A stretch of DNA of 64,000 nucleotides. It comes from an uncultured Paracoccaceae bacterium (GTDB taxonomy: Bacteria > Pseudomonadota > Alphaproteobacteria > Rhodobacterales > Rhodobacteraceae). The notes below the pieces were generated by a model. The model had not been told where the DNA came from, searched no databases, and saw nothing but the letters and a program-made list of their open reading frames with translations. The translations under genes and the position numbers were made by a program. Position 1 is the stretch's first letter; each line of letters starts with the position of its first letter. The stretch lies in contig CANLND010000001.1 of the NCBI GenBank assembly GCA_947492585.1, forward strand, positions 124,001 through 188,000. Reading direction: 5' to 3'. Of this stretch, positions 41,599 through 50,707 are shown in pieces.

Positions 41599-42078
41599 TC
41601 AGTCGCCCAACCGTTTTTGTTTTGGGGCATGCATCGCAGTGTCTCCGGCCTTTGCCACCTTGGTCATCAGCGCGACCAGGGTGGCGCGCTCTTCCTCTGT
41701 GATCCCGGGCAAAATGCGGGGTTGCATGTCCAACACAATGGGATGGGCCCGATCCAGCAGGGCGCGTCCTTCGGCGGAAATGGAGATCTCGCGCGCACGT
41801 CGGTCAGCACGGGAAATCACGCGTTGTATCAGCGATTTGGATTCAAGCCGATCAATGACTTTGCCCAGCGTGGCCCGGTCATAGCCGATCATTTTTGCAA
41901 CAGACGCCTGATCAACGTCTGGATTTTCAGAAATCGCCCAAAGTGCGGCATATTGCACGGGTGTTAGGGGCAGTCCTTCTTCCGTCATGGCGGCGGTGAA
42001 TAGGGCCGCTGACATCTGGTTCAAGCGACGGATCAGATGAGACGGCAAGGTGTTGATGTCTATCTGCGGAGCATTCAT
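41599..42078 (-). CDS. MarR-family regulator
   Basis: A 159-aa winged-helix protein: LTPVQYAALWAISENPDVDQASVAKMIGYDRATLGKVIDRLESKSLI is the HTH, followed by the wing (RADRRAREISISAEGRALLD). The sequence is closest to MarR members that respond to phenolic ligands. There is no adjacent target beyond the 267-base gap downstream of the NDH-SelD gene, so autoregulation or a distant target is likely. Its promoter carries GGAAATTATCGTTACTTTC, an imperfect inverted repeat. Confidence 0.88.
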   Translation of the reverse strand: MNAPQIDINTLPSHLIRRLNQMSAALFTAAMTEEGLPLTPVQYAALWAISENPDVDQASVAKMIGYDRATLGKVIDRLESKSLIQRVISRADRRAREISISAEGRALLDRAHPIVLDMQPRILPGITEEERATLVALMTKVAKAGDTAMHAPKQKRLGD

Positions 42079-42345
42079 GTGGCGCGACCCTGTTCGCTGA
42101 TGCGGAAACGCGGCGTTTTGTGCCGTATTTTTATTCTTAACATGGAAATTATCGTTACTTTCTATTTGAACCGCAAGGCAAGATTCATTTCATGTTAATT
42201 GTGAAGAAACGTGGTTTTCCGCCTGTTCCTGACGAGTGAAGTGTACGATTGGCACAAAACGAGCCAGTATTGGCTGAGATTCCGAAGCGACAAACATGGC
42301 CTGCCCCGCGGGCACAGTGACGCGCCACATGTGGATGAAACGGGG

Positions 42346-44520
42346 TTAGATGGGCTTTGCCCGTACTCGTGGGCGCGGGTCGTGCGGTGGTTCGGTGATT
42401 TCACCAATCACAGCGGCCCGCTCGCCCGCGGCAGTGAGCGTTTCTAAGATCTGTGCGCTGTGCATCGGGGGGAGGGCCGCCAATAGGCCACCCGCAGTCT
42501 GTGGATCGCACAGCAGCGGTTCCTGCATTGCCAGATGGGGAACATGCGCCGCGTTGTGGATATATGCACGGTCACGTGCGCGACGTGCTGAGAGGCTTTG
42601 TGCACCTGAAAGGTATGGAATCTTTGGCAAATCCAATAGCGCGCCACAGCGCGACATGGCGCAAAGGTCCGTCAGGTGTCTGGCCAAACCCAAATGACCC
42701 ACGAGTGTTCTGGCCGTCGCGCCCCGCAATAGATCTATGGTTGGTCCAAGGGGACGACACATGCTGGCATAGGCCTGCGCAACGTCCGTGCTCTTGGCGA
42801 CATTTGCCAGATCCGCCGCCAATAGCACACCGGTGCCGATGGGTTTTGTTAGCACGAGCAGATCACCGGGGCGTGCCCCGTGCGAGGCCTGCGAGGGCAT
42901 GTCTTTGGTTTGTTCCCCAATGAGCGTAAATCCAATGGTCAGTTCTGTTCCAACAGTTACATGCGTGTCTTCTAACGTCACGCCAGCGTTGGACAAATCT
43001 GCCTGTGCGGTGAGCCTGATCTCTGCGAGCGTGCGTTGCTGCAAAGGGGCGGACATGCGCGGAAGAATGACCATCAGGGTTGCAGTGTGCGGCGACGCGC
43101 CTGTCAGTTGAATTTTTGCCAAGGCTTCAATCACCGCTATCTGCGCCGTCAAAACCGGATCCCGCGCGACGCCGTGCAGGTGGTGGGTGCAGGTGACCTG
43201 CGTGACAGGGGCGATGGATCGAGTTTTGGCGTATGCCGGGGACAGGGGCGTCGCGCTATCGCGCTTTGACGACGGGGGCGGCGCTGCGGGAACCGTATCG
43301 CATGCTATCTCAGCTGCCACGTTGCCACAGACCGGGCCGTTGCGCATCTCTTGCGGCAAATCCACGGTGTGTTCCGCGGGGAGTGCGGCATGTGAGGGCA
43401 TCGGCAGGTCACTGAACTGGTTCATGAAGGTCTGATCGATGTGGTCTTTCCACCGCCACATCATCGGTCCCGATATGGGTACTCCAAATCGCTCTGCTAA
43501 CGCCGATGTACTACCCAGCGAAATGAGCTTTAAGTAATCCTGTTGAGGCTTGTATGCAAATAAGTCATCATCAGTAAGAAATGCACGTAAGTTACGAAAG
43601 AGAACCTTTGATTGGCGAACGGCATAAACCCCGGCTTTGGGGCGCGGGGCAAACGACAGGTGCGCGCAATCTCCGGTGGCAAAGACGCGCCGATCCGATG
43701 ATTGCAGGCACGGGGACACAGCAACATAGCCGTCGTGCAACGCCAGTCCGGTCTCCGCGAGCCAATCATAGGGGCGGGCCCCTGCGGCCCCGGTGGTAAA
43801 GTCTGACAGGATCTCTCGCCCGTCGGACAACCGGATGTGGTCGGTTTCAATGGATGAAATTGTGGCCTCTTCGATCAGGGTGATCCCTAATGTTGTCAAC
43901 TGGTTGCGCAGACGTTGCGCCGCCGCTGCGCCAATCGCAGTCAAGGCACGGGCACTGTCGATCAAAGTGGCGCGGGCCAGCCGATTGCGGCGGCGCAGGT
44001 CAAACGCCATCGCCATGATCAGCTCTGCTCCTGCCACGCCACCGCCAATCACGGCAACGTGGGCCGGGGCGATGCCTTTACGATAGCTGTGCCACCGGGC
44101 GGCAAACTGACCCAGCGGTTTTGCAGGCACCGCGTGGTCCGCAAAACCCGGTAAATCAGGCATGTCGGAGGTGATGCCCACGTCAATCGCCAGCGCATCA
44201 TAGGCAATCGGCGGACGGTCAGCCACATGTACAAGCTGCTGTGTGGTATCGATCCCTGTAGCCGCCCCAAGAACCAACCGGGCCCCTGCAAAGCGCGCGA
44301 GTTTCACCAGATCAATGTCGAGCGCATCGCGTTCGTAATGCCCTGCAACAAAGCCGGGCAACATGCCGGAATAGGGCGCAGTGGGGCCAGGATTGATCAA
44401 CGTCAGGCGTGCACCGGGCAAAGGGTTCATGCCCCATTGGCGCAGCACCAGCGCGTGAGAATGGCCGCCTCCGATCAGCACCAGATCCTTGGTTAAGGGA
44501 AAATGTGGTGACGGATCCAT
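42346..44520 (-). CDS. NDH-SelD-type fusion with degenerate SelD domain
   Basis: A 724-aa protein. Residues 12-360 form a pyridine-nucleotide oxidoreductase of the type found N-terminal to SelD (VLIGGGHSHALVLRQWG, VAVIGGGVAGAEL, FATGDCAHL). Residues 390-710 follow a SelD layout: TKPIGTGVLLAADL, GATARTLVGHLGLARHL and DPQTAGGLLAAL are kept. The active-site GG(C/U)GxK loop of SelD is replaced by RNGPVCGNVA (393-402), the DDAA segment by unrelated sequence, and the VDFF/DDPY and GGHT positions by VTCTHH and VGTELT. Selenophosphate synthesis is therefore unlikely. The gene starts 29 bases after mnhG on the same strand, with an AAAGG box, so it may be co-transcribed with mnh. No mnmH is near. Confidence 0.8.
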   Translation of the reverse strand: MDPSPHFPLTKDLVLIGGGHSHALVLRQWGMNPLPGARLTLINPGPTAPYSGMLPGFVAGHYERDALDIDLVKLARFAGARLVLGAATGIDTTQQLVHVADRPPIAYDALAIDVGITSDMPDLPGFADHAVPAKPLGQFAARWHSYRKGIAPAHVAVIGGGVAGAELIMAMAFDLRRRNRLARATLIDSARALTAIGAAAAQRLRNQLTTLGITLIEEATISSIETDHIRLSDGREILSDFTTGAAGARPYDWLAETGLALHDGYVAVSPCLQSSDRRVFATGDCAHLSFAPRPKAGVYAVRQSKVLFRNLRAFLTDDDLFAYKPQQDYLKLISLGSTSALAERFGVPISGPMMWRWKDHIDQTFMNQFSDLPMPSHAALPAEHTVDLPQEMRNGPVCGNVAAEIACDTVPAAPPPSSKRDSATPLSPAYAKTRSIAPVTQVTCTHHLHGVARDPVLTAQIAVIEALAKIQLTGASPHTATLMVILPRMSAPLQQRTLAEIRLTAQADLSNAGVTLEDTHVTVGTELTIGFTLIGEQTKDMPSQASHGARPGDLLVLTKPIGTGVLLAADLANVAKSTDVAQAYASMCRPLGPTIDLLRGATARTLVGHLGLARHLTDLCAMSRCGALLDLPKIPYLSGAQSLSARRARDRAYIHNAAHVPHLAMQEPLLCDPQTAGGLLAALPPMHSAQILETLTAAGERAAVIGEITEPPHDPRPRVRAKPI

Positions 44521-47584: not shown

Positions 47585-50443
47585 TTATGCTCCTTCTTCG
47601 GTCTTGGACGCGTCGTCGTCGCGTGCGGGGTTGATGTCCATGGCGTGTTCGCTGGTGATGCCGGGCTGCCAGGCAAAGCGCGACAGGCTTTCCAGCGTCA
47701 GCAACACCGCGCCGACCACCGCAAGGAAAACACCAAGGTCAAACAAAGCAGCGGTGGCCCATTCGAATTTTTCGAGCGGCGCCCAGGTGATATAGCCAAA
47801 GGCTGAGGTCAGGAACGGCATGTCGTTGAACCACGCGCCCATGCCGGTGGCGGCAGCGATCAATACGCCAGAGCCGATGATGGCGTGGTACTGGAACCGC
47901 TGGCGATCCGCAGCCCAGCCAAAGCCGGAGGCCATGTATTGCATTATGATCGCAATGGCTGCGATCAAACCGGCAATGAAACCGCCTCCGGGCAGGTTGT
48001 GCCCCCGAAAGAAGATATAGGCCGCAACCATCAGGGCCACGGGCATCATCACCCGCGTGGCGACCACCATCATCAACGGATGCGCGTCACCTGCCTGTGG
48101 CAGATCCGGCGTGCGGTTGAGCAGATAGGCCCGGACTTTGGAGCCAAGCACCGCCTCGGTCAGGGCGTAAATCACCATGGCGGCGATACCAAGAACGATG
48201 ATCTCGCCAAAGGTGTCAAAGCCACGGAAATCGACCAGAATAACGTTCACCACATTGGTGCCGCCGCCGCCTTTGTAGGAATTGGCAAGGTGAAAGCCTG
48301 AAATGGTGTCGGCAGCGAAGTCGCGGGTCATCAGCGCATAGATCAACCCACCCGCTCCTAGGCCCGCGGCGACCGCAATTGCGCCATCGCGCAGCCGGGT
48401 GCCAACGGGCGATTCAACCGGGGTCTCTTTGGGAAGAAAGTTCAAGGCCAGAAGCATCAAAATGATGGTGACGACCTCAACCGAAATTTGGGTCAACGCC
48501 AGATCGGGAGCCGACAGGTAATTGAAGCCTAACGACACCACCAGACCAACAACGCCGATCAATACCAGCGCCAACAGGCGGTTGCGGTGGTGCAGCAGGA
48601 TGAAACCCGTGGCGACAACCAGTGCGATCCAGCCCAGTACAGGCAGCGCGCCCACGGATTGCACCGCGCGGGTCGCGTCCGGGAGGGTACCGGTTTTGAA
48701 CGCCAAATAGCTGATGCCCGTGGTGAACAGCACCATAATCAATCCGTAACGGGTGATGGCACCATTGTGCACGCCAGCGGTCACGCGATCCGCCAAAAGA
48801 GTCAAAGCGCCGATGTATTTGTCAAAGATCGCTTTGGCTTCGGGGCGGGGGAGGGCGTTCCACAGGGCTTCCACGTGACGGTGTAGAGACAGCAGAAGAA
48901 TGCCGCCAACCACAGCAATTCCTGACATGATCAACGCAGGGTTCACGCCATGCCACAGCTTTAGGTACACTTTGGGGTGGGAACCGGTCACAGCGTCCGC
49001 TGCCGCCTGAACCACTGGGCCAACCAATGTGCCCGAGAACAAACCAATCAGCACCACAAGCACCACCAAGAGCGCAGGCGCGGCCCACATGCCAAAGCCC
49101 GGATCATGCGGTTGGGCAGGGTAGTCGTCGCGTTTTGGGCCAAAGAACACATGCGCAATAAAGCGGAACGAGTAGGCCGCTGAGAACAGCGCGGCAAAGG
49201 TCGCAAGCGCGGGGATGATGTAGGGATTGTCTAGCCAATACGTGTGGCTGGCTTCCTCAAGCATCATTTCTTTGGACAAGAACCCGTTCAATGGCGGAAT
49301 GCCGGCCATAGACAAGGAGGCGACCATAGCGATGGTAAAGGTCACCGGCATCAGGTGACGCAATCCCCCCAGACGTTTGATGTCGCGGGTGTGGGCCTCG
49401 TGGTCGACGATACCCGCCGACATAAACAGCGCAGCCTTGAACGTCGCGTGGTTGATGATGTGAAACACAGCAGCAACTGCAGCTGCCTTGGTGCCAAAGC
49501 CCAAAAGCATGGTGATCAGGCCCAGATGTGACACGGTAGAAAAGGCCAACAGCGCCTTTAAGTCGTCTTTGAACAGCGCAATGACCGCGCCTAGGACCAT
49601 GGTGATCAGCCCAGCGGTTGTGACGATGTAGAACCATTCGGGCGTCCCCGCCAGCGCAGGCCACATCCGTGCCATCAAAAAGATACCTGCTTTTACCATG
49701 GTGGCTGAGTGTAGATAGGCGGACACCGGTGTCGGCGCGGCCATGGCATGGGGCAGCCAGAAATGGAACGGGAATTGCGCTGATTTGGTGAAACAGCCCA
49801 ACAAAATCAGAATCAACGCTGGCAGATACAGTGGCGACGCTTGGATCAGTTCTTTGTTTTGTAGGATCACCGTCAGATCATAGGATCCCGCGATATTGCC
49901 AAGGATCAGCATGCCGCCAATCATTGCCAGTCCCCCGGATCCGGTCACGGTCAGCGCCATTCTGGCACCCTGACGTCCGGCGGGCAGGTGTTTCCAATAC
50001 CCGATCAGCAAGAATGAACTGAGTGATGTCAGCTCCCAGAAAATCAACAAAAGCAGGATATTGTCGGAGGTGACGATCCCCACCATCGCCCCCTGAAACA
50101 GCAATAAATAGGTGTAGAACTGCCCCATAGGATCCTGACGCGACAGGTAAAATCGCGCGTAGAGAATGATCAGCAATCCAATCCCAAGGATCAGAGTGGC
50201 AAACAAAAAGCCAAGACCATCAAGAAAGAAATTGGCGTTGAGCCCCAGTCCGGGCAGCCAATCAAACCGCGCCTGGATGGTTTCACCGCGCAATACAGCG
50301 GGGGCATGAAGCATGAGGCCGACAAAGGCCAATAGAGTGGTCAAACCTGCCGCCGATGCGGACGCATTGCGCCCCGCACGGATCAAAAGCGCAGGAAAGA
50401 CAGCTCCTAGAAAGGGCAGGGCCGCGATCAGAAACAGGGACAC
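47585..50443 (-). CDS. mnhA: Na+/H+ antiporter subunit A fused to subunit B
   Basis: The large subunit, 952 aa from a GTG start at 50443 (AGGAG box about 10 bases upstream). The N-terminal part is NuoL-like (about residues 60-460: FYTYLLLFQGAMVGIVTSDN, KSAQFPFHFWLPHAMAAPTPVSAYLHSATMVKAG). A middle MbhD/E-like region follows around 580-700. The C-terminal 170 residues carry the MnhB signature FFRGHNLPGGGFIAGLIAA, so this is an A-B fusion, as in PhaAB of rhizobia. No separate mnhB exists in the operon. Such complexes export Na+ or K+ against protons and give salt and alkali tolerance. Confidence 0.95.
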   Translation of the reverse strand: MSLFLIAALPFLGAVFPALLIRAGRNASASAAGLTTLLAFVGLMLHAPAVLRGETIQARFDWLPGLGLNANFFLDGLGFLFATLILGIGLLIILYARFYLSRQDPMGQFYTYLLLFQGAMVGIVTSDNILLLLIFWELTSLSSFLLIGYWKHLPAGRQGARMALTVTGSGGLAMIGGMLILGNIAGSYDLTVILQNKELIQASPLYLPALILILLGCFTKSAQFPFHFWLPHAMAAPTPVSAYLHSATMVKAGIFLMARMWPALAGTPEWFYIVTTAGLITMVLGAVIALFKDDLKALLAFSTVSHLGLITMLLGFGTKAAAVAAVFHIINHATFKAALFMSAGIVDHEAHTRDIKRLGGLRHLMPVTFTIAMVASLSMAGIPPLNGFLSKEMMLEEASHTYWLDNPYIIPALATFAALFSAAYSFRFIAHVFFGPKRDDYPAQPHDPGFGMWAAPALLVVLVVLIGLFSGTLVGPVVQAAADAVTGSHPKVYLKLWHGVNPALIMSGIAVVGGILLLSLHRHVEALWNALPRPEAKAIFDKYIGALTLLADRVTAGVHNGAITRYGLIMVLFTTGISYLAFKTGTLPDATRAVQSVGALPVLGWIALVVATGFILLHHRNRLLALVLIGVVGLVVSLGFNYLSAPDLALTQISVEVVTIILMLLALNFLPKETPVESPVGTRLRDGAIAVAAGLGAGGLIYALMTRDFAADTISGFHLANSYKGGGGTNVVNVILVDFRGFDTFGEIIVLGIAAMVIYALTEAVLGSKVRAYLLNRTPDLPQAGDAHPLMMVVATRVMMPVALMVAAYIFFRGHNLPGGGFIAGLIAAIAIIMQYMASGFGWAADRQRFQYHAIIGSGVLIAAATGMGAWFNDMPFLTSAFGYITWAPLEKFEWATAALFDLGVFLAVVGAVLLTLESLSRFAWQPGITSEHAMDINPARDDDASKTEEGA

Positions 50444-50707
50444 TTGGGGACATCTCCTGGTTGGGCTAAAAAATGTCATTTTTAGGTAAGCTTTTTTTAC
50501 GCGTGGCGCCAGCGTTTCAGAACGCTAGACGGGTAAAATCGAAGTGTGACCGCGAATTTGACTGATTACACGAGACAACTTCACGGGGGTTACACAGCGG
50601 ATGACGGGATCTTGATCCGCATCGAGCACCCAAAATGTGGTGCGACGGGTGATCTGTTGGACAACAGCTGCTACATCTCAGACATAAAATTGGAACCGGA
50701 GACCGAT

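Follow-up and report, generated by a model that had tools for sequence, protein, structure and literature searches.

Loss of the SelD catalytic residues from an NDH-SelD fusion protein with a conserved oxidoreductase half in a Rhodobacteraceae genome without detectable mnmH

The window, a stretch of 64,000 nucleotides from an uncultured Paracoccaceae bacterium, encodes an NADH dehydrogenase-like flavoprotein fused to a SelD half from which every published catalytic residue has gone. No match to mnmH, the gene for tRNA selenouridine synthase, which uses selenophosphate, was found in the same genome. Our interpretation, to which we assign a probability of about 0.65, is that SelD catalysis was lost with the selenouridine trait, the oxidoreductase was kept and the SelD half has stayed as a domain without catalysis.

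The fusion gene and its domains

The gene lies on the minus strand and no internal stop interrupts its 724 amino acids; the plus strand across 42346-44520 contains many stops. The features of the gene and its surroundings are as follows.

42346..44520, minus strand: NDH-SelD fusion gene, 724 codons in one open frame
43414..44487, minus strand: oxidoreductase half, residues 12-369 (TIGR03169, 504.3 bits; 86/88 family-invariant positions kept)
43309..43344, minus strand: former Cys-x-x-Cys-Gly-x-Lys loop, residues 393-404 (catalytic Cys replaced by Val401, Lys by Glu404)
43228..43239, minus strand: former GDDA segment, residues 428-431, reading PAYA
42913..43197, minus strand: AIRS N-terminal-like domain, residues 442-536 (PF00586, 20.8 bits, below the cut-off of 24)
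42382..42873, minus strand: AIRS C-terminal-like domain, residues 550-713 (PF02769, 38.7 bits, cut-off 23.1)
42079..42345, no strand: gap separating the MarR gene from the fusion, where G248 has mnmH
41599..42078, minus strand: MarR-family regulator (PF01047, 45.7 bits), which flanks mnmH in G248

The match to TIGR03169 (Nterm_to_SelD) covers profile positions 1-365 of 365 and passes the curated cut-off of 310 bits. The protein also passes the curated cut-off of the selD model TIGR00476 (141.6 bits against 125), with a match that begins only at profile position 58. The nearest named relatives are Rhodobacteraceae proteins, for example from Ruegeria and Yoonia, at 46-54% identity, together with one from Leucothrix. 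A preliminary description of this DNA had recognised the NDH-SelD fusion, called its oxidoreductase half intact and judged the frame open throughout and the gene not a recent pseudogene, and these results agree on all counts; its coordinates for the loop are correct in plus-strand numbering, the gene itself being on the minus strand.

Catalytic positions of the SelD half

An alignment of 183 proteins (167 of them full length), among them that of the window, was used to examine the SelD half. They were drawn from the family sample, the genus set, further selected genomes and 11 named loci; family matches too weak for listing were left out unless they belonged to the selected genomes, and the named loci may duplicate a species. 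Three full-length fusions, those of the window and of the genus members G250 and G258, have broken SelD halves. The Cys-x-x-Cys ... Lys pattern is found in 164/164 of the others. None of these departs from the Cys, the Lys or three of the metal-binding Asp, and the fourth Asp is present in 163. The loop of the window protein reads RNGPVCGNVAAE, its DDAA position reads AYAK and its GGH (residues 518-520) reads DTH, while KPIGTG (559-564) and DPQTAGG (672-678) are retained. The alignment bears out the earlier claim that the Cys/Sec-Lys loop, DDAA and GGHT were lost and the two later motifs kept. Three further losses had escaped the preliminary description, namely Asp446 (of TTDH) to His, Asp469 to Lys and Asp606 to Leu; in addition, His465 is replaced by Glu. 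The four metal-ATP aspartates, at what we take to be positions 51, 68, 91 and 227 of E. coli SelD (all E. coli numbers used here except 17 and 87 are given on this assumption), correspond to Tyr430, His446, Lys469 and Leu606 in the window. An artefact of a single genome is refuted by G250 and G258, which carry their own, differently broken copies.

The extent of the damage was gauged at the 81 SelD positions with a conservation of 95% or more across the 164 full-length fusions, the window, G250 and G258 being excluded. The window keeps 52 of these, G250 62 and G258 58; the 164 fusions themselves have a median of 80 and a 5% point of 77, and their minimum of 67 belongs to a protein cut short. 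The residues essential to SelD are given in the available text of PMC4210487 as four Asp, a Cys-x-x-Lys motif and Asn87, and, for another SelD, the accessible part of PMC7595633 names a comparable set of residues that bind the ATP phosphates. These seven catalytic positions, placed by counting along an alignment of the G248 SelD half with 3u0o, are residues 401, 404, 430, 446, 465, 469 and 606 of the window protein. Position 465 is His in the fusion family and not Asn, as at Asn87 of E. coli. The window keeps 0/7 catalytic positions against 52/74 other conserved SelD positions (p 4.5e-4) and G258 keeps 2/7 against 56/74 (p 0.018); for G250, with 4/7 against 58/74, the difference is not significant (p 0.20). 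We rest the contrast on these seven published positions in preference to a post hoc list of 21 active-site positions, chosen from motifs after viewing the alignment, for which p was 1.4e-5, 0.004 and 8.6e-8.

Judged from these replacements, metal-ATP binding of the SelD kind is the function most clearly lost, and the retained part is mostly the rest of the conserved core. The SelD half of the window protein is probably an inert, folded pseudoenzyme domain. The preliminary description had suggested a repurposed ATP- or nucleotide-binding module unrelated to selenium. A role unrelated to selenium is probably right; the ATP- or nucleotide-binding module is not supported, all four metal-ATP Asp being replaced.

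Selenium genes and the mnmH locus

The window genome, 95.6% complete, was searched for selA, selB, mnmH and a second selD, as had been proposed. No match to selA or mnmH, no selB match over the cut-off and no second SelD was found in it. The five AIRS-domain matches in this genome are accounted for by PurL (two parts), PurM, a protein of the sll0787 family and the fusion gene itself. An extra match to the SelD model, at 1261-2352 of L004 (G000:C39), is the sll0787-family AIR synthase-like protein. A further SelD-model match of 48-66 bits was seen in 7/7 genus members without mnmH that were searched (window, G250, G258 and G261-G264) and was absent from G248 and G257, the two mnmH-bearing species checked.

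In the genus member G248, mnmH occupies 3040-4113 of L191 and is flanked by the MarR gene on one side and the fusion on the other. The fusion directly follows the MarR gene in the window and, judged by open reading frames, in G250; other open reading frames precede it in G258 and precede the oxidoreductase gene in G263. No remnant of mnmH was detected at the protein level in 42079-42345 (best tblastn E 1.7). Nucleotide comparison gave a 38-base match at 76% to sequence upstream of the G248 mnmH (E 8.8e-4) and an 18-base match at 89% within its start region (E 0.011, weak). An assembly gap as the reason for the missing mnmH is rejected, the site between MarR and the fusion being closed, although this genome, at 95.6% completeness, might still have a copy elsewhere.

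Occurrence in the genus and the family

The genus is represented by 18 species. Ten have mnmH over the cut-off, each within 300 bases of the fusion, and all ten have intact SelD catalytic motifs. Seven species are without mnmH; three of them (window, G250 and G258) carry the full-length fusion with a broken SelD half and the other four (G261, G262, G263 and G264) carry the oxidoreductase alone. No SelD remnant was detected behind the oxidoreductase-only genes (L185-L188) by tblastn with the SelD halves of G248 and the window. The eighteenth species, G256, has intact motifs in a genome 67% complete, on a contig that ends 151 bases past the fusion match, and its missing mnmH is accepted as an assembly gap at the contig end. 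The same is accepted for G102, whose locus ends 32 bases past the SelD match and whose motifs are intact. Weak mnmH-model matches over 57-59 positions, far below the cut-off, were found in G256, G261 and G264. With G256 left out, SelD is intact in 10/10 species with mnmH against 0/7 without (Fisher 5.1e-5, which is no true probability since the species are related).

In the family, the fusion mostly accompanies the selenouridine trait, that is mnmH. A fusion-protein match, partial ones included, was found in 184 of 248 family genomes (one per genus) and an mnmH match in 186, over the cut-off in 181. Many of the listed genomes have the fusion and mnmH facing each other within a few hundred bases (e.g. 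G094, G015, G044 and G010) and others have them apart (e.g. G068, G110 and G137). SelA was over the cut-off in 8/248.

A wider survey of 394 family genomes (393 genera) found a best SelD E-value between 1e-20 and 1e-60 only in the window genome (G000) and in G207; because almost every genus was represented by a single genome, the survey may have overlooked cases within other genera. In the draft G207 (G207:C110) the fusion and mnmH are each broken into fragments, which probably reflects sequence errors rather than decay. The weak SelD matches of G203 and G293, near 1e-18, are better fitted by the sll0787-family and ThiL models, in a comparison that excluded G324, G212, G334 and G280. A different arrangement was seen in G051, G026 and G016 (L062, L064 and L065), where mnmH is accompanied by a separate SelD scoring 416-424 bits and by a gene for the oxidoreductase alone; in G051 this last gene adjoins mnmH, with SelD elsewhere.

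The oxidoreductase half

The 88 oxidoreductase positions used as family-invariant are those at least 95% conserved, and the window keeps all but two of them. The solved chains nearest to this half by sequence are B. subtilis YjlD (NADH dehydrogenase-like, E 5.5e-17), CoA-disulfide reductase and AIFM2/FSP1, and NADH:quinone chemistry is the putative activity by homology. It has been proposed, in the available text of PMC2432076, that the oxidoreductase reduces a selenium compound for SelD. Eight genomes (G127, G167, G187, G203 and G261-G264) have an oxidoreductase-only gene, with mnmH and SelD below the cut-offs, and these argue for a selenium-free role. An independent function of the oxidoreductase half is suggested by the decay of SelD in those genus members that lack the neighbouring mnmH. 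Of the 88 invariant positions, the oxidoreductase-only genes retain 79-85, no more than the 85 that mark the 5% point of intact fusions, and some shift in what they do is therefore possible.

Phylogeny and the number of losses

A tree of 64 tips was made from the oxidoreductase half; it is a gene tree and not a species tree. The G258 gene falls in a clade (support 100) separate from that of the window. The mnmH-bearing G248, whose SelD half is intact, clusters with G250, G261 and G264 at support 100, apart from the window and its sister G263, which has the oxidoreductase only; the six species together form a clade with support 100. As G248 and G250 are joined with a support of just 57, the tree allows either a single loss or two separate losses for G250 and the G261/G264 pair. 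The G262 gene falls in another, oxidoreductase-only clade. On this gene tree, the SelD half would have decayed independently at least three times, provided that mnmH was not regained in G248.

The branch lengths for the oxidoreductase and SelD halves are 0.137 and 1.937 in the window, 0.195 and 1.194 in G250, 0.213 and 0.596 in G258, and 0.215 and 0.282 in the intact G248. Long SelD-half branches are thus confined to the broken copies.

Selection on the two halves

The dN/dS comparison across relatives that had been proposed was carried out with a purpose-written codon model, with branch lengths common to both halves, on 20 taxa and 362 oxidoreductase and 319 SelD codons. For the oxidoreductase half, omega was 0.140 in the background, 0.099 in the window lineage, 0.091 in G250 and 0.165 in G258. 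For the SelD half, the background value of 0.150 rose to 0.388 in the window lineage (which includes the stem common to the window and G263), 0.333 in G250 and 0.418 in G258; the model has one omega per class, with distances near saturation, and averages over the time before and after loss. The background omega was rejected for the SelD half in the window (2dlnL 28.7), G250 (16.6) and G258 (40.5), as was an omega of 1 (33.3, 34.7 and 29.9, respectively). The broken SelD half is relaxed and, on the branch average, not freely drifting.

For the window lineage, a two-phase history in which a functional phase was followed by neutrality over half of the terminal branch fits only 2.6 log-likelihood units worse than constant omega. 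The neutral lengths for a test of such late neutrality were derived by hand from the omegas and are 1.03, 0.67 and 0.56 per codon for the window, G250 and G258. The chance of meeting no stop is then 0.05, 0.10 and 0.20, respectively. The conserved non-catalytic positions kept are 49/71 in the window (late-neutral expectation 35.7, P 0.001), 57/71 in G250 (44.8, P 0.0012) and 56/74 in G258 (50.3, P 0.095), the last being not unusual. The only indel of the window SelD half that is absent from G248 is in frame. Taken together, the results point, though not conclusively, to a weak constraint that has continued rather than to pure decay; any such constraint is not universal, because four relatives lost this half.

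Structure prediction

The structure predicted from 12 sequences has a mean pLDDT of 59 and a pTM of 0.56. The pLDDT is below 50 at residues 325-452 and also over most of 245-318 in the oxidoreductase half, so that the low value of the loop says little. Across 551-724 it is 69-92 per ten-residue block. The best solved match found by Foldseek was E. coli SelD, 3u0o (TM 0.65 by target length, rmsd 4.8). Besides the window protein, the alignment comprised 11 intact relatives picked by similarity, with the broken copies of other species not among them, and the model is therefore not proof that the window's own SelD half folds.

Discussion

The ancestor would have been an ordinary fusion of an NADH-dehydrogenase-like flavoprotein with SelD, mostly alongside mnmH. 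Once mnmH was lost in the window lineage there would have been no use for selenophosphate, and the replacement of all seven published catalytic and metal-ATP positions, which is visible in the sequence, would have followed. The oxidoreductase half would have stayed under full selection because of a selenium-free use, to which its conservation and the oxidoreductase-only relatives point. The SelD half would persist as a non-catalytic C-terminal domain under purifying selection that is, as a branch average, relaxed and not absent. It is probably still folded, for a misfolded tail might harm the oxidoreductase, or the domain might aid assembly. Against this reading, four relatives without mnmH carry no SelD half, so that half is dispensable in some species.

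A more demanding version, that several species independently lost SelD catalysis and kept the fold as a selected structural or regulatory part of a quinone-reductase-like flavoprotein that was never selenium-dependent, is put forward only tentatively. The four genus members without the half, including the tree sister G263, are what plain decay would predict, in which the SelD half has been unselected since mnmH was lost, has not yet met a stop or frameshift and will be trimmed in future as in G263. The half-neutral terminal branch, only 2.6 log units worse, and the chances of 0.05-0.20 per lineage of meeting no stop, which are not extreme, are compatible with it. However, the three full-length broken copies are all free of stops and net frameshifts, two of the three lineages retain more conserved non-catalytic positions than expected and a whole-branch omega of 1 is rejected in all three, and we regard plain decay as unlikely.

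A new biochemical role, such as binding of a nucleotide or other ligand in the old cleft, might have been read from the intact frame and the remaining KPIGTG and DPQTAGG core motifs. Given the replacement of all four metal-ATP Asp together with the catalytic Lys and Cys, the different changes in G250 and G258 with no common new motif and the absence of the half from four relatives, such a role is very improbable. It is harder still to credit that the protein belongs to the named family TIGR04369 (fusion_not_SelD), which by its name is also an oxidoreductase fused to a SelD-related domain that is not SelD and which was compared by name and score. The model matches nearly the full length of the window protein, but the score of 282.7 bits misses the cut-off of 700, and two intact fusions (401.3 and 424.3) outscore the three broken ones (282.7, 339.1 and 333.0). 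Moreover, the broken copies sit among intact relatives on the oxidoreductase tree, which contains no TIGR04369 member.

Loss of SelD catalysis with the oxidoreductase retained, our preferred reading, may be set against known systems. The published NDH-SelD fusions have, in the available texts of PMC2398784 and PMC4561486, the same two domains in the same order as the window protein. All of the published bacterial and algal fusions are said in the accessible part of PMC2398784 to carry CxxC in the SelD active site, whereas the window protein has none of the catalytic residues. The genus members G261, G263 and G264 have the oxidoreductase as in the window and no mnmH over the cut-off, but in them the SelD half is absent altogether. 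A crenarchaeal SelD-like family resembles the window protein in being a SelD relative in organisms without known selenium use; unlike it, this family reportedly retains the catalytic Cys and the Asp residues that bind metal, and it forms a separate branch of the superfamily for which the available text of PMC4210487 mentions no oxidoreductase fusion.

No paper was found in a literature search on TIGR04369 and TIGR03169, and a search on SelD as a pseudoenzyme gave none about SelD by title. Such decay was in no title or abstract start found, the search being mostly at title and abstract level with subscription journals outside it. As far as searched, what is new is a repeated, mnmH-linked loss of SelD catalysis inside one genus, in which full-length, catalytically empty SelD halves stay on an intact oxidoreductase.

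These species offer a natural experiment in which, without mnmH, the oxidoreductase stays while the SelD half dies or disappears, and the function of the unexplained flavoprotein family TIGR03169 thereby becomes testable without selenium. There is also a consequence for annotation. With a score above the selD cut-off, the window protein would enter surveys as an orphan SelD and be taken to indicate an unrecognised use of selenium. The available text of PMC5029168 already cautions that pseudogenes, or genes with a part in different processes, may be among the orphan selD genes; the window gene is a concrete instance with a visible cause, the loss of mnmH.

Near the fusion, at 47585-50479 of the window on the minus strand, a 964-codon open reading frame combines antiporter/complex I-type and MnhB-type domains in one protein and is adjoined by further antiporter-like open reading frames.
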